Under the pieces are notes generated by a model. The model did not search any database and was not told the DNA's origin. It worked only from the letters and a program-made list of their open reading frames with translations. From an uncultured Hyphomicrobiales bacterium (lineage in GTDB: Bacteria > Pseudomonadota > Alphaproteobacteria > Rhizobiales > Beijerinckiaceae), in contig CAIZEI010000175.1 of NCBI GenBank assembly GCA_903931945.1, positions 1-56,744 of the forward strand: DNA of 56,744 nt, in the 5' to 3' direction. The position numbers were made by a program, and so were the translations under genes. Below, piece by piece: positions 2,685 to 29,058 of the stretch; positions within the stretch are counted from its first letter, which is position 1; each line of letters starts with the position of its first letter.

Positions 2685-3716
2685 ATGCGCCTCTGTCTCG
2701 TCGGCCTTGCCTGGTTTGCCGGGATGAATTGCGCGCCCGTTTGGGCGCAATCGGATCCAGTCGCTGACTTTTATCGCGGCCAGACGATCAGCATCATCGT
2801 CGGCTCTGATCCGGGCGGGGGTTATGACGCTTATGCGCGTCCTGTGTCGCGCCATCTTGGCCGGTTGATTCCCGGCAACCCCGCCATCTCGGTCAAATAT
2901 ATGCCGGGCGCGGCCAGTCTGGTCGCGGCCAACTATCTGTTCAACAACGCGCCGAGGGATGGATTGCAAATCGGCGCGCTGCAACGCCAAATTCCGTTCG
3001 AGCCATTGCGCGGCGCCGAGGCGGCGCGTTACGACCCGTTCAAATTCGTCTGGCTTGGCAGCGTCACATCCGAGACCAGCGTATTGATCGTTTCAAAGGC
3101 GGCAACGCAGCGAACCCCCGCCGATGTGCTGACGCAGCCCTTGATTGCGGCAAGTCTCGGCGCCGGGACAGACAGCGAAGTCGAATCCATCGCAATGCAA
3201 CGCCTTCATGGCGCGCCAATCAAACTCATCAGCGGCTATCGCGGCACGCCTGAAGCGCTGCTGGCGCTGGAGCGCGGCGAGGTGCAGGGCGTCCATGGCA
3301 TTTCCTGGTCCTATATCAAATCCAAAAAGGCCGACTGGCTGCGCGATGGAGCCATTCGTCTGATCCTGCAAAGCGGATTGCAACTGCATCCGGATCTGGC
3401 CGGCGTTCCATCGATCAGGGACTTGTCCAGAACCGATGAAGAACGCGCTGTCTGGGAACTGATCCTTGCGCCAAAAGCCATGTCGCGACCCTTCGCGCTG
3501 CCGCCCGACACGCCCGCTGATCGCGCGGCCGCGCTCCGTCGCGCATTCGATGCGCTCATGACGGACCCCGCGTTCCTCGACGACATGGCCAAATCCCAGC
3601 TCGAAGCGCTGCCTATCGGCGGCGCGGACATCACGGCCTTGATGCAACGGCTATATGCGTTTCCGTCAACAACAATTCAACGCATGCGTTCGGCAATCGC
3701 AGTCGCCGCGCCGTAA
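2685..3716 (+). CDS. TctC/Bug-type periplasmic solute-binding protein, orphan
   Basis: A 343-residue exported protein with signal peptide MRLCLVGLAWFAGMNCAPVWAQ. The mature part starts with the DFYRGQTISIIVGSDPGGGYD block typical of tripartite tricarboxylate transporter binding proteins (TctC, also called Bug). PGNP, MPGAAS and NAPRDG motifs follow. The family captures carboxylates in the periplasm and hands them to TctA/TctB membrane proteins. No tctA or tctB homologue is present here. The start was placed at the second in-frame ATG because GGGGAGGG lies immediately against the upstream ATG (2676) but 9 nt before this one. It is divergent from the enolase-superfamily gene and convergent with the racemase-like gene at 3723, whose stop is only 6 bp away. 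The ligand is unknown. Confidence 0.87.
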   Translation: MRLCLVGLAWFAGMNCAPVWAQSDPVADFYRGQTISIIVGSDPGGGYDAYARPVSRHLGRLIPGNPAISVKYMPGAASLVAANYLFNNAPRDGLQIGALQRQIPFEPLRGAEAARYDPFKFVWLGSVTSETSVLIVSKAATQRTPADVLTQPLIAASLGAGTDSEVESIAMQRLHGAPIKLISGYRGTPEALLALERGEVQGVHGISWSYIKSKKADWLRDGAIRLILQSGLQLHPDLAGVPSIRDLSRTDEERAVWELILAPKAMSRPFALPPDTPADRAAALRRAFDALMTDPAFLDDMAKSQLEALPIGGADITALMQRLYAFPSTTIQRMRSAIAVAAP

Positions 3717-3722
3717 CCGGGC

Positions 3723-4496
3723 TCACAATTTGGCGGTGAAATCCTTGTAGTCGAGTTTTGCGCGCGGGTACGTCAGGGCGCTTTGCGTCCATTTGCGACT
3801 GACGCAGAGTTCGGCAAACCTGATGCCGATCGCCTTGGTGTTCAACACCTGCACGCCTGTGGCTTTGGCAAGGTCGTCGGGATCGACAATATAGGGGATC
3901 AGCGCGCCGCCCAGCGGCAGAATGATTTCCGCGCCGTCTTCATCGACAAGCTCCCGGATCAACTTGACCATGATGCCGAATATCTCATCCTCGCGTTCGC
4001 CCGCGTTGACGTAAACGCCGATCGGCTTCATGCCCGCGATGAATTGCTCAAGCCCGTTTGCGCGCATGATGCGGCGCGTGTAGGGCACATGACTTGGCAG
4101 CGGCACAGTCACGCCTACCCTGTCGGCCAGAACCAGCGCCGCATGCATCGAGGCGCGATTGAGGCCGATGACGGGAATGTCGACCGCAAGCCTGCCGCCA
4201 TCGACTCCGGGATCGAATGTATTGCTCGAAATGACGGCGTCATAGCCATTTTCCTGCGCCCAGAATATCTTGCGCACGATACCCGGCGTCTCCATCATGT
4301 GATGGAGACCGTTCAACTTGCTTTGCGCGCCGATGGATTCCATCACCTGCGCGCCCTCGTAATTGTCAGGAAAGCCGATCTCGACGGTTGTGCCCGCCGA
4401 CGCATAGGAGTTCAGCAATTTCGTAATCGCCTGGACATCGTAGGGCGGGCCTTTTTCGTCGGTTTTCGGGGCCTGATCGACAAACAGAATGCGCAT
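3723..4496 (-). CDS. Divergent Asp/Glu/hydantoin racemase-fold protein, copy A
   Basis: 257 residues starting MRILFVDQAP. The fold is recognisable from the (S)NTFDPG element near residue 91, which matches the CFxDPG block of hydantoin and aspartate/glutamate racemases, and from LPLGGALIPY near residue 195, which matches their LGCAGM block. The cysteines used for two-base racemisation are absent from both blocks. The only cysteine in the protein is in the C-terminal ELCVSRKW. By eye roughly three quarters of positions are identical to the copy at 5570, pointing to tandem duplication. It is the last gene of a three-gene operon (copy B, TctC-type protein, copy A) with a 57-bp gap upstream after start correction. 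It may be a racemase with altered chemistry, a lyase/isomerase of the same fold, or a binding protein. The substrate is unknown. Confidence 0.75.
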   Translation of the reverse strand: MRILFVDQAPKTDEKGPPYDVQAITKLLNSYASAGTTVEIGFPDNYEGAQVMESIGAQSKLNGLHHMMETPGIVRKIFWAQENGYDAVISSNTFDPGVDGGRLAVDIPVIGLNRASMHAALVLADRVGVTVPLPSHVPYTRRIMRANGLEQFIAGMKPIGVYVNAGEREDEIFGIMVKLIRELVDEDGAEIILPLGGALIPYIVDPDDLAKATGVQVLNTKAIGIRFAELCVSRKWTQSALTYPRAKLDYKDFTAKL

Positions 4497-5569: not shown

Positions 5570-6340
5570 CTAGAGCCGTTGGGTAAAATCAGCAAGGGTC
5601 AGTTTTGCACGCGGATAGGTGATCGCGCTTTGCGTCCATTTGCGGCTGACGCAAAGTTCGGCAAAGCGAATCCCGATGGCCTTGGTGTTGAGAACCTGAA
5701 CCCCTGTGGCGGCGGCCAGCTCATCCGGATCGACCTGATAGGGAATCAGCGCGCCACCGAGCGGCAAAATGATTTCCGCGCCGCGCGCGACCAGATCATG
5801 GATGATCTTCACTGCAATTTCGAAAATCTCGGCTTTTCGCTTCTGCACATCGACATAGACATCGATCGCCTCCATCCCGGCGACGAATTGCTCAAGCCCG
5901 TAGGAGCGTAAAATTCGTCGGGTATAGGGAATGTGCGAAGGCAAAGGCACGGTGACGCCCACCCGATCGGCCAGCGTCAGCGCGGCGTGCATCGACGCCC
6001 TGAGCACGCCAATGACAGGAATATCGACCGCCAGGCGCCCACCGTCGACGCCCGGATCAAATGTATTGCTGCAAATAACAGCGTCATATCCATTTTCCTG
6101 CGCCCAGAAGATTTTACGGACGATGGCGGGCGTTTCCATCATGTGATGGAGCCCGTTCAGCTTGCTTTGGGCGCCGATGGTTTCCATCACCTGCGCGCCA
6201 TCCGAATTGTCGGGAAAACCCAACTCGATAACGGTTCCGGGCGAGGCGTAGGACATCAACTGTCGGGTGATCCGCTCGACATCGTAGGGCGGGTTCTTGT
6301 TGGCGACGAGCGGCGCCTGATTGAGGAAGAGGATGCGCAT
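5570..6340 (-). CDS. Divergent Asp/Glu/hydantoin racemase-fold protein, copy B
   Basis: 256 residues beginning MRILFLNQAP, paralogous to the protein at 3723-4496 over its entire length. It reads CSNTFDPGVDGG where copy A reads SSNTFDPG, so it keeps one cysteine next to the first active-site block, but the second block is again LPLGGALIPY without cysteine. The start was set at the internal ATG because it gives the same N-terminus and length as copy A; the 24 codons upstream resemble nothing. A weak ribosome-binding site (GGAAAC) precedes it. This is the first gene of the operon, so the promoter should lie in the 166-bp gap shared with the divergent ThDP enzyme gene at 6507. The conservation between copies suggests both are functional. 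Confidence 0.77.
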   Translation of the reverse strand: MRILFLNQAPLVANKNPPYDVERITRQLMSYASPGTVIELGFPDNSDGAQVMETIGAQSKLNGLHHMMETPAIVRKIFWAQENGYDAVICSNTFDPGVDGGRLAVDIPVIGVLRASMHAALTLADRVGVTVPLPSHIPYTRRILRSYGLEQFVAGMEAIDVYVDVQKRKAEIFEIAVKIIHDLVARGAEIILPLGGALIPYQVDPDELAAATGVQVLNTKAIGIRFAELCVSRKWTQSAITYPRAKLTLADFTQRL

Positions 6341-6506: not shown

Positions 6507-8351
6507 ATGGACAAGCAGGGCAGACAGGATGCACGGGCGGTTGAACTCGCGACGGCGCGGTTCGATGGCAAGGACCCTTTGCAGAAAGTATCCAACGCGC
6601 AATTGGGCTGGGCCTCTGACGCCATGGCCGAGACCCTGCGGCGGCTCGATGTGCGCTACATCGCGCTGACCCCCGGCGCGAGCTATCGCGGGCTGCACGA
6701 CAGTCTGGTGAACTATCTTGGCAATCGCGATCCGCAAATGATGGTTTGCCTGCATGAAGAACACGCGGTCGGCATTGCGCAGGGCTATGCGAAAATCACC
6801 GAAAAGCCGATGGCTGTCGCTGTGCATTCGAATGTTGGACTCATGCACGCCACCATGGCGATTTTCAATGCCTGGTGCGGGCGCAATCCCGTTTTGATTC
6901 TGGGCGCGACCGGCCCCGGCGACGCCGAGGAACGCCGCCCCTGGATCGACTGGATACATACGGCCAAAGATCAGGGCGCGTTGATCCGTCACTACACTAA
7001 ATGGGACGACGAACCGCGCTCGGCGGGCGCAGCTGTCGAATCCATTACGCGCGCCTGGCAGATCGCCGCGACTCATCCTTTTGGCCCCACCTATGTTTGC
7101 CTCGATGTGGGATTGCAGGAGTCCAGACTCGAAAAGGAGATTCGCTTCCCCGATATGGCGCGTTTCCAGCCCGGCGTTCCCCCGGCGCCATCTGCAGCGG
7201 CGGTTGAGGAAGCCGCGCGGCTTCTGGTTCAGGCGAAAAAGCCCGTTATCCTGATGGGCCGCGTATCGCGCTCGCTTGTCGATTGGGATTTGCGCGTCGA
7301 GCTTGCCGAGGCGCTCGGCGCTGCTGTCCTGACGGACATGAAACTTGCGCCCGCGTTCCCAACCGAACACGAATTGCACCCGGTCGAGCCCCGATTCCGC
7401 CCGTCGCCGGAGTCGGCGCGTATCACCAAGGAGGCTGACGTCATTCTGTCGCTCGACTGGATGGACCTGAAGGGTTACTTCATCCAGACGCTGGGAAAGG
7501 ATGCCGAGGTCACAGCGAAGGTCATCCATTGCACGGTCGATGATTATCTCCACAATGGCTGGAGCATGGACCATTTCGGCCTGCCGCCCGCCGACCTGAA
7601 AATATTGAGCTCGCCCGATCAACTGGTGCGTCCGCTGCTGGAGGCGGTGCGCCGGCTGCGTGGCGCAAAAGCGAAAGCGGCGCCCAAATTCAGTCCGCGC
7701 GTGCCGCCGAAGCTGGCGTCGCCCCGCAAAACCGGCGTCATGGGCCTGCGCGATCTGGCGCTTGTTGTGCGCGCGTTCTGCGACGCGCGTGAAGTGACCC
7801 TTGCCGGCTATGCGCTTGGCTGGCCGTCCGATACCGTCAGTTTCAGGCATCCGCTCGATTATGCGGGGTTCGACGGCGGCGGCGGCGTTGGCTCAGGCCC
7901 CTCGAACGCCATCGGCACAGCGCTGGCGCTCAAGGGCTCCGGGCGGCTCGCGATGACGGTGATCGGCGATGGCGACTTCACCATGGGCGCAAACGCCTTC
8001 TGGACCGCCGCGCATATGGGCATCCCACTGCTCGTCGTGATCGCCAACAATCAGGTTTATTACAACGATGTCGCGCATCAGGAGCGCATGGCGGTCATGC
8101 GCGGACGTCCGGTCGAAAACAAATTTGTCGGGCAGGAGATGGTCCGCCCGACAATTGACCTCATCGCGATCGCCAAAGCGCAGGGGCTTGACGGAGAAGG
8201 TCCTGTGATGAACGCCGTGGACTTTGCCGCTGCGCTGGAGCGTGGCGAAAAAGTGGTTCGCGCCGGTGGACAATATGTCATCGACGCCCGCGTCGATGTC
8301 GGCGCGCCGGGCGAAGGCGATCGTGGGCATACCTCGGGCCGCAAGGATTGA
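6507..8351 (+). CDS. Thiamine diphosphate-dependent enzyme of the acetolactate synthase/benzoylformate decarboxylase superfamily
   Basis: 614 residues with the three-domain ThDP architecture: an N-terminal PYR domain with the cofactor-activating glutamate in LHEEHA (E84), a central domain of about 130 residues, and a C-terminal PP domain with the Mg/ThDP motif GDGDF at 487-491 ending in ANN about 26 residues later. Members make or break C-C bonds next to a carbonyl (decarboxylases, carboligases, oxalyl-CoA decarboxylase, acetolactate synthase). The sequence is not close enough to a known enzyme to name a substrate. GGGGAGG precedes the ATG at good spacing. It is divergent from the racemase/SBP operon and convergent with the CMD-like gene. 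No regulatory small subunit (IlvH) follows, which argues against a biosynthetic acetolactate synthase. Confidence 0.85.
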   Translation: MDKQGRQDARAVELATARFDGKDPLQKVSNAQLGWASDAMAETLRRLDVRYIALTPGASYRGLHDSLVNYLGNRDPQMMVCLHEEHAVGIAQGYAKITEKPMAVAVHSNVGLMHATMAIFNAWCGRNPVLILGATGPGDAEERRPWIDWIHTAKDQGALIRHYTKWDDEPRSAGAAVESITRAWQIAATHPFGPTYVCLDVGLQESRLEKEIRFPDMARFQPGVPPAPSAAAVEEAARLLVQAKKPVILMGRVSRSLVDWDLRVELAEALGAAVLTDMKLAPAFPTEHELHPVEPRFRPSPESARITKEADVILSLDWMDLKGYFIQTLGKDAEVTAKVIHCTVDDYLHNGWSMDHFGLPPADLKILSSPDQLVRPLLEAVRRLRGAKAKAAPKFSPRVPPKLASPRKTGVMGLRDLALVVRAFCDAREVTLAGYALGWPSDTVSFRHPLDYAGFDGGGGVGSGPSNAIGTALALKGSGRLAMTVIGDGDFTMGANAFWTAAHMGIPLLVVIANNQVYYNDVAHQERMAVMRGRPVENKFVGQEMVRPTIDLIAIAKAQGLDGEGPVMNAVDFAAALERGEKVVRAGGQYVIDARVDVGAPGEGDRGHTSGRKD

Positions 8352-8365
8352 GCGCAATGCGTTCT

Positions 8366-8971
8366 TCAGCACTTGCCGAAGGACGCCTGCCTCCCATCGG
8401 TCTCGATTTCGATGCGCAGAGCCTTTGTATAAAGTCCGGTGCCGACGTAATTGGCGACGGTCAGCGCGATTTCGTCAATCTCGCGGGGTGAATTGAGCCG
8501 CGCGAGCGTGGTCCATGTGGCGTCGTCGACATCGCCGCCTCCAGCCATTTGATCGACGAAGGCGAGGATCGACCGTTCGCGTTCATCAAAAAGCGGCGAA
8601 TTTCGCCACTGTTTCACGGCTTCCATTTTCTCCTGACTATAGCCGCAGGCCCTGATCATGGGAACATGCTGGTTGATTTCATAGTCTGATCCCACAATCA
8701 CCGCCGTCCGCATGATGGTCAGCTCCCGGAGAATGCGCGGCGTCACTGCATCGTTGCGCAGGGCAAGGGCGAACTGTCCCGCAGCCCGCGCAATCTCCGG
8801 CGTATGCGCGCGCGCAAGCGTGAGATTGAGCATATCGGGGCCGGGTGTTTTGAGAATGTCCGGCGATTGTCCGGCAACACCCGGAAGGCGCGACACCTTT
8901 GGGCCATCGGCCAACGCCGGAAGGCTCAAAACAAAAAAAGCGACAAAGACAGGCGTTGCTATTCTGCGCAT
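8366..8971 (-). CDS. Exported carboxymuconolactone decarboxylase (CMD/AhpD-like) family protein
   Basis: 201 residues with a signal peptide, MRRIATPVFVAFFVLSLPALA, which is unusual since most CMD-family proteins are cytoplasmic. The CMD core is recognisable: helices with REL and IMR, the segment ending INQHVPMIRACGYSQEK, and a C-terminal NYVGTGLYTKAL. There is no CxxC pair as in AhpD, so a peroxidase role is unlikely; the protein has one cysteine in ACGY and one as its last residue. GGAGG stands 6 nt before this ATG. An upstream in-frame ATG at 9028 would bury the signal peptide and has no ribosome-binding site. It is divergent from the exported cytochrome c protein at 9158 and could act with it in the periplasm (inference). 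Confidence 0.8.
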   Translation of the reverse strand: MRRIATPVFVAFFVLSLPALADGPKVSRLPGVAGQSPDILKTPGPDMLNLTLARAHTPEIARAAGQFALALRNDAVTPRILRELTIMRTAVIVGSDYEINQHVPMIRACGYSQEKMEAVKQWRNSPLFDERERSILAFVDQMAGGGDVDDATWTTLARLNSPREIDEIALTVANYVGTGLYTKALRIEIETDGRQASFGKC

Positions 8972-24092: not shown

Positions 24093-24932
24093 TCACGGCG
24101 CGCGCAACACTGGCGGTTCCAGCGCGGCTATCGCTCCGGCCTCGATTCCCATATCGGGCAACCAGAATTTACCAACGTATCGTTTGCCATTGATTCCGTC
24201 CGACAACGTTGAGGCGAGCCACAACATGGGCGCGATCATCACTTCGGGCTCCAGCAGTTTCTGCCCGGTGATTTCGGCATTCCGTTTGCCCATGGGGGAC
24301 ACAAAGTCCGTATTGACCGCCCCGCCGGGAATGAGCGAATTGCAGGTCACGCCCGTTCCCTCAAGGTCCTGCGCCCAGATCAGGGTTTCAGCCTCAATCG
24401 CCGTCTTGCTGACGCCATAGGGCGAGTTCTGCTTGCGCTGCATTGTCGAAAGACTGGTGGTGACATTGACAATGCGGCCCCATCCGCCACGGATCAGCAA
24501 AGGCGCGGCGACGCGCGACATAAAATAAGTCCCGATGACATTGGTCTCGATCACGTCCATCCATCGATCGGGATCGGTTTCCCAGAACTTCATGCTGGAG
24601 TAATTGGGCCCATTTTCGAGATGCGCGGGACCTTTACCCGCATTGTTGACGAGAATGTGGAGGCCGCCGAACAAACGCGCTGTTTCCGCCACGGTGCGAT
24701 CGCAATCCTCTTTGCGCGTGATGTCGCAAGGCATCGCAAGCGCTTTGCCGTGACCGGGCTTGAAGGCGACTTCGGCGACTGCCCGCCCGGCCTCCCCCAC
24801 ATTCAGGTCCGCAAAAACGACGTTGGCGCCTGCGCGCACCATCGCCTGCGCCATCGCGCGGCCAAGCCCGGCGGCGGCGCCGGTGACAATGGCGACGCGA
24901 CCATCGAGACGCAGAGATGCGACTGTTGTCAT
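24093..24932 (-). CDS. Short-chain dehydrogenase/reductase (SDR), last gene of the hydratase-like operon
   Basis: 279 residues of classical SDR type. The cofactor motif TGAAAGLG is near residue 17, NNAG near 92, a catalytic serine in NVTTSLS around 147, and the YxxxK pair in YGVSKTAIE near 160. It oxidises or reduces a hydroxyl/keto group with NAD(P) in the cytoplasm. It has GAGGACGAT directly before the ATG and follows the nitrile hydratase-like alpha gene by only 7 bp, so it belongs to that operon. A dehydrogenase acting on an alcohol, aldehyde or hydroxyamide produced from a nitrile is possible, but nothing in the sequence fixes the substrate. Confidence 0.88.
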   Translation of the reverse strand: MTTVASLRLDGRVAIVTGAAAGLGRAMAQAMVRAGANVVFADLNVGEAGRAVAEVAFKPGHGKALAMPCDITRKEDCDRTVAETARLFGGLHILVNNAGKGPAHLENGPNYSSMKFWETDPDRWMDVIETNVIGTYFMSRVAAPLLIRGGWGRIVNVTTSLSTMQRKQNSPYGVSKTAIEAETLIWAQDLEGTGVTCNSLIPGGAVNTDFVSPMGKRNAEITGQKLLEPEVMIAPMLWLASTLSDGINGKRYVGKFWLPDMGIEAGAIAALEPPVLRAP

Positions 24933-24939
24933 ATCGTCC

Positions 24940-25587
24940 TCATCGATTTGGAGCGCTGGCGCGAGCGACGCCGATCATCGAATCGCGCGTAACCAGCGCC
25001 GCAAGTTCAGCCTCGCCAAGGCCCTGCGTTCCCTCCGGTCGTTCAGGTACAACCAGAAAGCGCATATCTGCGGTCGAATCATGAACACGCACAACAACAT
25101 GTTCTGGCACATGTGTGCCGAATTCGGCGAGCACAGCGCGGGGTTCGCGCACCACGCGCGCGCGATACGCCCGACTCTTGTACCAGCTTGGCGGCAGACC
25201 GAGCAGATCCCTCGGATAACATGAACACAAAGTGCAGACGACGACGTTATGTTCGCCCGCCGTGTTCTCGATCGCAACAAGCTTTGCAGTCGTCATTTCG
25301 AAGCCAAGTTCCGAAACAGCGCCATTTGCATCATCCAACAACCGTTTTCGGAATGCGGGATCTGTCCAGGCTTTGGCGACGACGCGGGCGCCATTCGCCG
25401 GCGTGATGGAATCGCGACGCTCGATCTGGCGGCGCACGTCATCCGCGCTGACAACGCCTTTTTCGATCAGCAGTTCCTTCAGCGCGATGCCGAGGATTTG
25501 ATAATAGGAATGCACCTTGTCATCAGGCTGCGGCGGTGCGTGCACAGAGCCGTGCTCATGATCATGGAGATGATGTTCCTCGCTCAT
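24940..25587 (-). CDS. Nitrile hydratase alpha / thiocyanate hydrolase gamma-like metal-binding subunit with His-rich N-terminus
   Basis: 215 residues. The metal site VCTLCSCYP (C118, T119, C121, S122, C123) is the claw-setting motif of nitrile hydratases. A threonine in the second position is the form found in cobalt enzymes and in thiocyanate hydrolase, while iron enzymes carry serine. LLGLPPSWYKS and YRARVVREPRAVLAEFG follow as in the family. The N-terminus MSEEHHLHDHEHGSVH holds six histidines in 16 residues, not typical of the catalytic core and possibly a metal-binding tail. GGAGAGG precedes this ATG, whose ATGA overlaps the stop of the upstream gene. The beta subunit is split into two genes upstream, in the order known from scnB-scnA-scnC. 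Substrate (nitrile or thiocyanate) is undecided. Confidence 0.85.
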   Translation of the reverse strand: MSEEHHLHDHEHGSVHAPPQPDDKVHSYYQILGIALKELLIEKGVVSADDVRRQIERRDSITPANGARVVAKAWTDPAFRKRLLDDANGAVSELGFEMTTAKLVAIENTAGEHNVVVCTLCSCYPRDLLGLPPSWYKSRAYRARVVREPRAVLAEFGTHVPEHVVVRVHDSTADMRFLVVPERPEGTQGLGEAELAALVTRDSMIGVARASAPNR

Positions 25588-25865
25588 GTGAGCCTCTCCA
25601 GCCAATGTTCGTAAAGGTCGGCCTCGATCGCGTCGATTGCCGGGCCTGCATAATCGGACCAAAGATCGATCGCGCGAAAGCGCACTTTATAGACGCCTTT
25701 TTTTAGCCCGGGCAGGCCATATGCGGCGGTTTCAGCATTGTCGAAATTGCCGAAGAATTTGATGACTTCGCCGGTTTTCCCACGCAGATAGACTGGTGTG
25801 CGGATATGGCCAGGTGGAAAATCCTCGCGCACGCGGATCGGCGTTCCAGGAGCGAGGCGCGTCAT
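25584..25865 (-). CDS. Nitrile hydratase beta C-terminal domain-like / thiocyanate hydrolase alpha-like subunit
   Basis: 93 residues starting MTRLAPGTPIRVREDFPPGH. This corresponds to the SH3-like C-terminal half of nitrile hydratase beta: FxxGxxVRV-type start, HIRTPVYLRGKTGEVIKFFG, VYKVRFRAIDLWSDYAG and D(L)YEHWLE. In thiocyanate hydrolase the same domain is a separate subunit (ScnA). Start and stop both overlap the neighbours by 4 bp (ATGA), so the three subunits are translationally coupled in fixed stoichiometry. A longer in-frame extension upstream exists only because it reads through the previous gene in another frame. Confidence 0.83.
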   Translation of the reverse strand: MTRLAPGTPIRVREDFPPGHIRTPVYLRGKTGEVIKFFGNFDNAETAAYGLPGLKKGVYKVRFRAIDLWSDYAGPAIDAIEADLYEHWLERLT

Positions 25866-26197
25866 GGCGATTCCATGCCGGATTCGAGTTCGCCGGAGGC
25901 AGCCAGTCTTTGACGCACCAGCGCGACCCGCGCGTCGATTTCGTCCTGCGTAAGGGCGCCCTTGTCGATTAAAAGTCGGCACAGCGCCGCCGTCCAGCGT
26001 TCGTAATAGGCGAGCGTATTATAGGCGTCATGGCCAAGCGCTTCCACCGCCGCGCGGTTTTCATGCGTATTGACAAGCCCGATCGCGCCAACTGCGGCGC
26101 GCAATCCGTCGATCTGTTTCTCCCAGAAGGTCAGCGGATGCGCCTCAGTGTCAACCGGGCCATCCTGCAATCCTCCGACATCGTGGGGCCCACGCAT
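25862..26197 (-). CDS. Nitrile hydratase beta N-terminal domain-like / thiocyanate hydrolase beta-like subunit
   Basis: 111 residues starting MRGPHDVGGLQDGPVDTEAH, the counterpart of the MNGIHDLGG start of nitrile hydratase beta. Helical segments FWEKQIDGL, HENRAAVEALGHDAY and TLAYYERWTAALCRLLIDKG follow, the last being a well-known element of the family. It corresponds to ScnB of thiocyanate hydrolase and also resembles the small activator proteins of cobalt nitrile hydratases. As the first gene of the four-gene operon it lies 113 bp from the divergent binding-protein gene, across two palindromic boxes. No separate activator or cobalt transporter gene is visible in the window. Confidence 0.82.
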   Translation of the reverse strand: MRGPHDVGGLQDGPVDTEAHPLTFWEKQIDGLRAAVGAIGLVNTHENRAAVEALGHDAYNTLAYYERWTAALCRLLIDKGALTQDEIDARVALVRQRLAASGELESGMESP

Positions 26198-27353: not shown

Positions 27354-28433
27354 TTATTTCGTCCGCATCGTATTTTTGCCCTCTTCGATATAGCCGCTGA
27401 AGAAAGCGATCAGTTCAGGATTTGGCGCGGCTTTTTGCATCAGGATGTCGCGCGCGCGTGTGCTTGTATCATACTCTGGCGCAAAGCGCATTGTTGTTTC
27501 AGCATCGCGGCGAAACTCTTCATCCGTCTTGAGCGCTTCAAGTCCCGCCTTGATTTCCGCAAGCGCCTGAGGCGGCGTATTGGGCGCCATCAGGAGCACG
27601 CGCTCATAGCCGCGCGCGACGGTGTTGATCGTATCGAATGCGTTCCAAAGCCGCCCCTCCGGCGCCCGTCCGCGAACCTCGCGGAAATAGTCCCAGAATG
27701 ACAGAGCTTCAATGCCGGTCGCGTCCGTCGGGCGCGGCGTCTCAGACTCATTGGCGTAGTCAAACCACAACGGCATGGCTTCGCCCTTGACAACGAGCGC
27801 AGGCTCCACAGCCGCGCGATAGGAGGGCAGGGATTCCGAAGTCATCTGAACTTCGCCGCGTTGCAAGGCGAGCCGCGTGTCCGCCGCTCCTGGATAGCCC
27901 GTGACATAGCGGTAATTCATCCCGAGGAGATCGAGCTGCAGCCGCAAACGCAGGTCCTTGTCAACGTCGATCGCAAGGCCCCCCATCCAGACTTCCCTGG
28001 CTTTCATAAAGTCTTCCGGCGAATTCAAGCCACCGCCGATATCGCGACGCCCGTAAGTGACGCTAACGCCCGAGCCGGTGCCCGCGAACGTCATTTTCGA
28101 AAGTTCGACCTTCAGGCTCGATGCGCCCATGACGGACGCGCCCGCGACAGTCGAAAAGAATCCCAGCGTGAGACCATCGCCGGGCGCAACCTGACCGAGC
28201 CAATTTGCCGCAACATTGCCAGCTGCGCCCGTCATAATACGCGGAATGACCGCCGGATTGCCTGGCAAATGTTTGCCAAGATGGCGCGAGAGCAGTCTTG
28301 CTTCCGTATCTGTAGGTCCGCCTGCAGACAGATTGACCAGCAGGCTCAGCTGTTTGCCGCGATAGAATTCCTGCGCGGTGAGGGCCGAAGGCGCCAAAGC
28401 GAGTCCGGCAATCATGAAGGCTGTTTTGAACAT
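27354..28433 (-). CDS. TctC/Bug-type periplasmic solute-binding protein, orphan
   Basis: 359 residues. The signal peptide is MFKTAFMIAGLALAPSALTAQ, followed by EFYRGKQLSLLVNLSAGGPTDTEARL, HLPGNPAV, MTGAAGNVAANWL and VAPGDG, a divergent version of the TctC pattern. The PTDTEAR element in place of the usual GGYD suggests a different ligand pocket from the other family members in the window. GGGAGGAAAG precedes this ATG well; the long upstream extension has no signal peptide or ribosome-binding site. It is convergent with the gene at 26311 (8-bp gap) and lies downstream of gcrA in the same direction, 79 bp away. Confidence 0.85.
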   Translation of the reverse strand: MFKTAFMIAGLALAPSALTAQEFYRGKQLSLLVNLSAGGPTDTEARLLSRHLGKHLPGNPAVIPRIMTGAAGNVAANWLGQVAPGDGLTLGFFSTVAGASVMGASSLKVELSKMTFAGTGSGVSVTYGRRDIGGGLNSPEDFMKAREVWMGGLAIDVDKDLRLRLQLDLLGMNYRYVTGYPGAADTRLALQRGEVQMTSESLPSYRAAVEPALVVKGEAMPLWFDYANESETPRPTDATGIEALSFWDYFREVRGRAPEGRLWNAFDTINTVARGYERVLLMAPNTPPQALAEIKAGLEALKTDEEFRRDAETTMRFAPEYDTSTRARDILMQKAAPNPELIAFFSGYIEEGKNTMRTK

Positions 28434-28512
28434 GCCTTTCCTCCCTGTGTTGGAAAGAGGATAGCACGATTCATGCGGTCGGCCAGACGCCGACGGCGCA
28501 ATATAGCGATGC

Positions 28513-29058
28513 TCAGGCTTGACGCTGTTGCTGCATCCGCCGTTCCCGATCCCGCTCGCGCCGCCTGTCCTGAACCGGCTGATAAGCAATCCGCGCATGC
28601 GGACCGCAATAGGAAACCCCTATGGGCGAAGGGCTGCCACAATACCGGAACTCGGGCGAAGTGGGATCGCCGAGCGGCCATTTACACATGGATTCGCGTA
28701 GTTCCAGAATGGTCACACGCTCGCTGATCGGGATGACAACATTTTCCACCTGCCGGGGAACAACAGCTGTCTCGATTTGCGGTGAGTAAGCAAGCGCCGT
28801 CGCGCCATGGCTGACGGGTCCGCCGCCGGAACTCTTGTTTGGCGTCCGGTTGAACCCATTGTCCTGCCGGGGCGTGCGTGAGCGAGGCGCCGGCAAATTC
28901 GGCGTTTTGGCTCGACCCGCAAAGCCCAATCGGTGCACCTTTCCGATCACAGCGTTGCGCGTAATGCCATTGGCGAGCTCCGCAGCGATCTGGCTGGCGC
29001 TTTTGCCATCCATCCACATCTTTTTGAGAGTCTCAACACGTTCATCTGTCCAAGACAT
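28513..29058 (-). CDS. gcrA: GcrA cell cycle regulator
   Basis: 181 residues. The N-terminus MSWTDERVETLKKMWMDGKS and the following SASQIAAELANGITRNAVIGKVHRLGF are the GcrA DNA-binding domain with its helix-turn-helix. A low-complexity Pro/Thr/Asn linker comes next, and the C-terminal MCKWPLGDPTSPEFRYCG-type segment is the sigma-70-interacting domain with conserved cysteines. GcrA binds promoters carrying CcrM-methylated GANTC and stimulates sigma-70 transcription of cell cycle and division genes in alphaproteobacteria. An upstream extension of 30 codons lacks conserved content; MSWT is the universal GcrA start and has a GAGGG-type site before it. The upstream region contains five GANTC sites. 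Confidence 0.95.
   Translation of the reverse strand: MSWTDERVETLKKMWMDGKSASQIAAELANGITRNAVIGKVHRLGFAGRAKTPNLPAPRSRTPRQDNGFNRTPNKSSGGGPVSHGATALAYSPQIETAVVPRQVENVVIPISERVTILELRESMCKWPLGDPTSPEFRYCGSPSPIGVSYCGPHARIAYQPVQDRRRERDRERRMQQQRQA

Follow-up and report, generated by a model that had tools for sequence, protein, structure and literature searches.

The DNA stretch analysed here, 56,744 nucleotides of contig CAIZEI010000175.1 from an uncultured Hyphomicrobiales bacterium (hereafter the window), contains four consecutive minus-strand genes that raise the question of which enzyme they encode and how that enzyme would acquire its metal. Their products are the two halves of a nitrile hydratase beta subunit (betaN and betaC), the metal-binding alpha subunit, which starts with a His-rich tail, and a short-chain dehydrogenase/reductase (SDR). 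The original prediction had described a nitrile hydratase/thiocyanate hydrolase-like operon, perhaps a new hydratase, with a tail that could load the metal in place of a missing activator. Our analysis makes it reasonably probable that the genes specify a three-subunit, cobalt-type nitrile hydratase and not a thiocyanate hydrolase (SCNase), both the activity and cobalt as the metal being predicted from sequence. By gene order and the failure to find an activator in the genome, the layout is that of the three-subunit, activator-less enzyme of Streptomyces canus. The elements considered are listed below with their positions in the window (aa, amino acids).

25862..26197, minus strand: betaN (NHase_beta_N), AnhD-type N-terminal half of nitrile hydratase beta, 111 aa; PF21006, E 3e-22; TIGR03888 positions 1-100.
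25584..25865, minus strand: betaC (NHase_beta_C), AnhE-type C-terminal half of beta, 93 aa; PF02211, E 6e-17; TIGR03888 positions 138-225.
24940..25587, minus strand: alpha (NHase_alpha), metal-binding subunit, cobalt-type, 215 aa; PF02979, E 3.8e-80.
25540..25587, minus strand: His-rich N-terminal tail of alpha, MSEEHHLHDHEHGSVH, 16 residues; aligns with the tail of Thiobacillus thioparus ScnC.
25219..25236, minus strand: CTLCSC metal-binding motif, residues 118-123 of the alpha translation.
25210..25212, minus strand: Arg126 of alpha, the equivalent of ScnC Arg136; Trp in most fused-beta nitrile hydratases.
24093..24932, minus strand: SDR (adh_short), 279 aa; PF00106, E 6.5e-42.

The split beta followed by the metal subunit was present as predicted, with Pfam or NCBIfam matches to all parts, the cobalt-type VCTLCSC motif in alpha and, from the coordinates, 4-base ATGA overlaps at both the betaN/betaC and betaC/alpha junctions. 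The PF02979 search found a single alpha gene in the genome. Neither beta half reached the single-beta cut-off of TIGR03888 (152.2 bits; 70.7 for betaN and 65.2 for betaC). The three are real genes and not chance open reading frames (ORFs), because betaN, betaC and alpha recurred in separate frames and in the same order in 77 of 80 relatives, these being the best 80 of 457 related stretches in public prokaryote genomes, a set biased to the window's clade. In the other three (L006, L010 and L074), a contig end just upstream of alpha leaves alpha or betaC-alpha, and in none of the 80 did betaN and betaC share one frame. One relative, L023, has betaN-betaC (3440-4110) about 3.8 kb from alpha (7908-8597). 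The SDR gene starts 7 bases past alpha with neither overlap nor fusion; the prediction was right in placing it next to alpha and wrong in calling it fused. With ATGA overlaps joining the first three genes and a gap of 7 bases before the SDR, the four are likely to form one transcript.

We have compared alpha with the family models that separate the two candidate enzymes. It scored above the nitrile hydratase equivalog cut-off (TIGR01323, 259.7 vs. 249.85 bits) and below that of ScnC, the thiocyanate hydrolase gamma subunit (TIGR03887, 208.8 vs. 291.45 bits). The ScnC of a Roseomonas SCNase (locus L115), taken as positive control, behaved in the opposite way, reaching 359.2 bits with TIGR03887 and failing the nitrile hydratase model. 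The TIGR03887 cut-off was passed in none of 398 Pseudomonadota genomes, a sample drawn evenly and including that of the window. The AlphaFold2 model of alpha (mean predicted local distance difference test score, pLDDT, of 84.9; below 50 over residues 1-21) had cobalt-type nitrile hydratase alpha chains as its top Foldseek matches in the PDB (best 7qoy_A, E 4.3e-22), with the first thiocyanate hydrolase gamma chain at rank 21 and similar TM-scores. Nitrile hydratases in the PDB were also matched at the sequence level. Alpha (24943-25587, minus strand) also exceeded the cut-off for NHLP leaders of ribosomally synthesized and post-translationally modified peptides (TIGR03793, 56.5 vs. 50.9 bits), presumably owing to a kinship of such leaders with nitrile hydratase alpha.

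The active-site residues contributed by the beta halves were conserved as well. R48 of betaN, which we take to be the equivalent of beta-Arg52, was kept in 33/33 split, 23/23 fused and 2/2 SCNase rows of the alignment, and R22 of betaC, presumably beta-Arg157, in 33/33, 23/23 and 1/1 rows, respectively, so that both arginines were invariant in every row covering those stretches. The Tyr after CSC was found in 33/33 split, 22/24 fused and 2/2 SCNase rows.

The split betaN-betaC-alpha enzymes also differed from the fused ones at the position of Arg126. Members of the alpha family occurred in 58 of the 398 sampled genomes, at 61 loci found by a search with the ScnC model, which may miss distant alphas. 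These comprised nine split betaN-betaC-alpha loci (the window included; L092 and L093 have the same sequence in the part that entered the tree), 49 fused cobalt-type loci, two fused iron-type loci (CSLCSC) and one split locus in the order alpha-betaN-betaC (L094). The residue after CTLCSCYP was Arg in all nine split betaN-betaC-alpha loci, in 80/80 relatives, in 4/4 split plasmid loci and in both ScnC, and in the 49 fused cobalt-type loci it was Trp (45), Phe (2) or His (2); L094 also has Trp. An Arg at the ScnC 136 position is common to the split class and the SCNases, hence it is not diagnostic for thiocyanate hydrolase. The titles of two PDB entries show that this position has been mutated both ways, as ScnC R136W (3vyg) and as aW116R in the Pseudonocardia nitrile hydratase (3vyh), and the ScnC change was also visible in sequence comparison. 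Like the window enzyme, the two-subunit cobalt nitrile hydratases (e.g., Geobacillus 2dpp, Pseudonocardia 1ire, Pseudomonas putida 3qxe) have the fold, CTLCSC, both beta arginines and, in the sampled loci, often a His-rich tail; they differ in their single beta gene, in the residue replacing Arg126 and in having an activator gene.

Members of the Arg-type class were seen in records named Alpha-, Beta- and Gammaproteobacteria, Nitrospirota, Planctomycetota, Cyanobacteria and Actinomycetota. Among plasmid records, those of Planktothrix and Streptomyces show the order betaN-betaC-alpha, and those of Agrobacterium and Polymorphobacter betaC-alpha-betaN. At two loci of the latter order (L118 and L119), DUF302 and CbtA/CbtB or HoxN/NixA-type cobalt/nickel transport genes lie alongside.

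The original prediction had proposed a phylogeny against ScnABC and the two-subunit hydratases. In an alpha tree of 99 rows built with the Arg column masked, a single branch (SH-aLRT 99) separated all 41 Arg rows from the others, and one change sufficed for Arg/not-Arg vs. three for split/joined beta. A concatenated tree of 59 rows (L094 left out) set 24 fused enzymes apart from 33 split and two SCNase rows with 100/100 support. Within the Arg class, the window grouped with two uncultured Rhizobiales sequences (100/99) in a clade of seven rows (100/100), which holds Hyphomicrobiales-type rows and one metagenome-assembled genome named as a gammaproteobacterium. The two SCNases formed a branch of their own (100/100) that grouped with L117-L119 inside the Arg class (99/89), L117 being a Streptomyces plasmid homologue with the gene order of the window. 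The best tree nests the SCNases in the Arg class, and a tree keeping the split enzymes apart from them was not rejected by the approximately unbiased test (p 0.093); the SCNase branch is long, and only one of the two SCNases contributed a betaC to the concatenated tree.

These data bear directly on the possibility that the enzyme is a thiocyanate hydrolase, converting thiocyanate to carbonyl sulfide and ammonia. Its gene order matches the scnB-scnA-scnC order of thiocyanate hydrolase genes, and the enzyme of T. thioparus (PDB 2dd4) shares with it separate chains matching the beta halves, a His-rich tail, CTLCSC and the Arg after CTLCSCYP (Arg126 of alpha, Arg136 of ScnC). Moreover, the SCNases join the Arg class with 100/100 support. 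The alpha score with TIGR03887, however, is far from that of the Roseomonas ScnC, no sampled genome passes that model, the seven-row clade of the window lies away from both SCNases, and the interval from KAW to CTLCSC, counted by eye, is 43 residues in alpha vs. 55 in T. thioparus ScnC, i.e., 12 residues shorter. On the family cut-offs and the tree we have rejected a thiocyanate hydrolase identity, which we regard as highly improbable. What stands of the predicted likeness is the kinship: the wider Arg-type group takes in the ScnC pair as well as the window enzyme. Alpha itself passes the nitrile hydratase model, fails that of ScnC and branches separately from the two ScnC sequences.

A further question is how a cobalt-type nitrile hydratase of this kind would obtain its metal. 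The predicted lack of an activator gene nearby was borne out, and a whole-genome profile search, also proposed at the time, was negative. In the window's own genome (98.49% complete, 4.76% contaminated), TIGR03889 searched to E 1 gave only an 18.7-bit partial match inside betaN (cut-off 46), and PF21006 to E 1 gave only betaN and a sub-threshold stretch of alpha, with no extra P15K-type gene. This negative covers TIGR03889 and PF21006; COG0523-type chaperones were not searched for, and at this completeness a gene on a missing contig is possible.

Across the sample, 49 of the 58 family-bearing genomes had a TIGR03889 match that passed the cut-off. The nine without it were seven with an Arg-type split enzyme only (G000, G095, G099, G226, G280, G388 and G390) and two with iron-type enzymes (G237 and G286), and all 49 genomes with a non-Arg cobalt-type enzyme had it. 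Two genomes (G016 and G139) carry both Arg-type and Trp-type enzymes, and by coordinates their activator lies beside the Trp-type locus. Of the 80 relatives, 46 had their genomes, of unstated completeness, searched and TIGR03889 was absent in 45, the exception holding a second, Trp-type locus beside the activator. The Arg-type class lives without the known activator family. Since the pattern maps to one deep branch, it is not evidence of many losses.

The split of beta could be set aside as the cause of activator loss. In L094 (betaN 1137-1520, betaC 790-1227) and L157 (betaN 3236-3568, betaC 2889-3464), both on the minus strand, of the Trp type and ordered alpha-betaN-betaC, the activator is kept beside the locus. 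The junctions there, with overlapping or abutting stop/start codons behind a purine-rich stretch, look like true splits and not frameshifts. Beta has therefore probably been split more than once, and the split alone does not go with activator loss.

TIGR03889 may miss the P15K-type activators of SCNases. At the Roseomonas SCNase locus L115, the betaN and betaC domains lie in one frame and CbtA/CbtB genes are present. A weak extra betaN-like stretch after scnC (5630-6136; PF21006 15.5 bits, E 3.5e-4) is perhaps a P15K-type activator.

For the three-subunit nitrile hydratase, the following mechanism can be proposed. At the cobalt-bearing CTLCSC site of alpha, water would be added to a nitrile (R-CN) to give the amide (R-CONH2), with the active site completed by betaN and betaC, in which both conserved beta arginines are present. 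Cobalt would most likely be loaded without a dedicated activator: the betaN-alpha complex would take up cobalt under reducing conditions, and betaN would swap the loaded alpha into the enzyme, as has been reported for S. canus AnhD in vitro. By this analogy, we propose that betaN may double as cobalt chaperone. Two relatives (L016, 1951-2940, and L058, 4780-5449) have two tandem betaN-like genes ahead of betaC-alpha, the additional copy being possibly a duplicate on the way to a dedicated chaperone.

ToyJKL, the toyocamycin enzyme, is part of an antibiotic pathway and also has a split beta. The precedent for the mechanism is the AnhD-AnhE-AnhA enzyme of S. canus CGMCC 13662, which has the betaN-betaC-alpha order of the window, separate genes for the beta halves, cobalt, and no activator gene in the genome; its cobalt is inserted under dithiothreitol, and AnhD, within an AnhD2A complex, serves as chaperone both for the metal and for subunit swapping (PMC7329996). 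The window differs in that its relatives are alphaproteobacterial and an SDR follows, and the likeness is one of published description, as the S. canus sequence was not compared. The three subunits of ToyJKL (Streptomyces rimosus, cited in PMC7329996) are likened to those of the window by description only. With this layout already known from S. canus (PMC7329996) and present in 77/80 relatives, the window enzyme is a further member, and the claim of a new hydratase falls.

Several points weigh against an activator-less enzyme served by betaN. According to Nelp 2014, as cited in PMC7329996, the toyocamycin enzyme requires no subunit other than its alpha, ToyJ, to be active and fully modified; alpha may therefore load itself, and betaN would not have to act as a chaperone. 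AmNHase and CtNHase have activator genes yet are cited as active without an activator (PMC7329996), so a missing activator says little on mechanism. Since the activator pattern traces to one deep branch, the genomes cannot be counted as independent of one another. The operon showed no recognisable amidase, and searches of the genome for CbtA and FmdA_AmdA gave no match. In favour of the proposed enzyme, three amidases over cut-off and two NicO-type Ni/Co transporters are encoded elsewhere in the genome. If alpha loaded and oxidised its own metal site unaided, as cited for ToyJ, betaN would be purely structural; this we consider very unlikely, as AnhD was required for S. canus maturation in vitro and its authors hold that the mechanism differs from that of the toyocamycin enzyme (PMC7329996). 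Maturation by an unrelated chaperone encoded elsewhere, such as a COG0523 GTPase, is somewhat less improbable, though still unlikely: COG0523 proteins serve Fe-type enzymes (PMC2770081) and were outside our searches, but no activator protein was needed for the S. canus enzyme in vitro (PMC7329996), and the COG0523 activators were described for the Fe type (PMC2770081), whereas the window motif CTLCSC is of the cobalt type.

There remains the tail itself, which the original prediction took for the enzyme's own metallochaperone, standing in for the missing activator. The tail exists and is probably disordered, judging from the alpha model, so that it could bind metal; no activator was found in the genome, and at least three clustered His were present in 79 of the 80 relatives, all but L010, where a contig end truncates the locus. 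Here, His were counted in the most His-dense run of 20 residues within the 60 or fewer in-frame residues that precede the alpha domain, a region that may include residues ahead of the true start. By this count, however, at least three His occurred in 9/9 Arg-type split vs. 46/49 fused cobalt-type loci (Fisher p 1.0), and at least five in 8/9 vs. 33/49 (Fisher p 0.26), with an activator in the genomes of all 49 fused loci; some split relatives have only three or four His in the tail. Clustered His are as usual where an activator is present, and this comparison within the 398-genome sample led us to dismiss the tail as its replacement, an explanation to which we give very little credence. The tail is a family habit with no tie to activator absence in these data. 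Probably disordered, it may help to hold cobalt, as an accessory feature common in the family.

Similar stretches are found in enzymes of other kinds. The Monosiga enzyme made without activator is reportedly less active when its (His)17 is removed, and is said to retain cobalt and much activity all the same. Placement within the known thiocyanate hydrolase clade, together with a tail in all its characterised members, had been named as what would speak against a new hydratase with a chaperone tail. The characterised T. thioparus ScnC does have one, its N-terminus MSADHDHDHDHDHDHK aligning with the window alpha tail, but the window alpha stands apart from the ScnC clade. In opisthokont eukaryotes, the fusion nitrile hydratases carry a His-rich stretch that joins beta to alpha (PMC3323583, PMC2603476) and corresponds in position to the tail of the window alpha. 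In Monosiga brevicollis, the order beta, His-rich stretch, alpha mirrors betaN-betaC-tail-alpha in one fused protein instead of three; this likeness is one of order only, as the sequence was not compared (PMC2603476, PMC3323583).

As to the fourth gene, its prediction as an operon partner held for part of the relatives. An SDR orthologue (71-81% identity) lies directly after alpha in 8/80 relatives (L005, L007, L008, L009, L015, L019, L020 and L034). At least 400 bases downstream were available at 77 of the 80 loci, L007, cut by a contig end, not being among them. The SDR is thus probably an operon partner in part of the window's clade only, and its closest solved chains are various SDRs. Two gene clusters common to six close relatives looked housekeeping-like by eye; among the less closely related loci, most of them Rhodobacteraceae-type, other neighbour clusters recurred in up to 17. 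A 414-aa ORF (27354-28598, minus strand), past the gene for the neighbouring binding protein, had no Pfam or NCBIfam match at E 0.001.

A broader picture can be sketched tentatively, and we hold it to be possible rather than probable. The window enzyme would belong to a deep and widespread class, defined by a split beta, Arg after CTLCSCYP and no activator of the known family, with the SCNases arising from or beside it. The Arg would be suited to small cyano compounds with a negative charge or strong polarity, betaN would be both subunit and cobalt chaperone, and the class would have its own substrate range and maturation. In the window's branch, the SDR would share the hydratase's substrate or work on its product. 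In the literature searched by title and abstract start, we found no statement of the Arg/split/activator pattern; subscription papers were largely outside this scope, and we make no claim that the pattern is unpublished.

The locus, first read as a new hydratase carrying its own chaperone tail, now stands as a member of a little-studied enzyme class and is open to test. Activator-free cobalt hydratases would be useful, since activator expression can be difficult (PMC3680314). The Arg/Trp position provides an easy way to tell the two classes apart by sequence, and an entry point to the kinship of thiocyanate hydrolase and nitrile hydratase. If the deep Arg class is real, the environmental alphaproteobacterial enzymes would differ from the industrial ones in both substrate range and maturation route.

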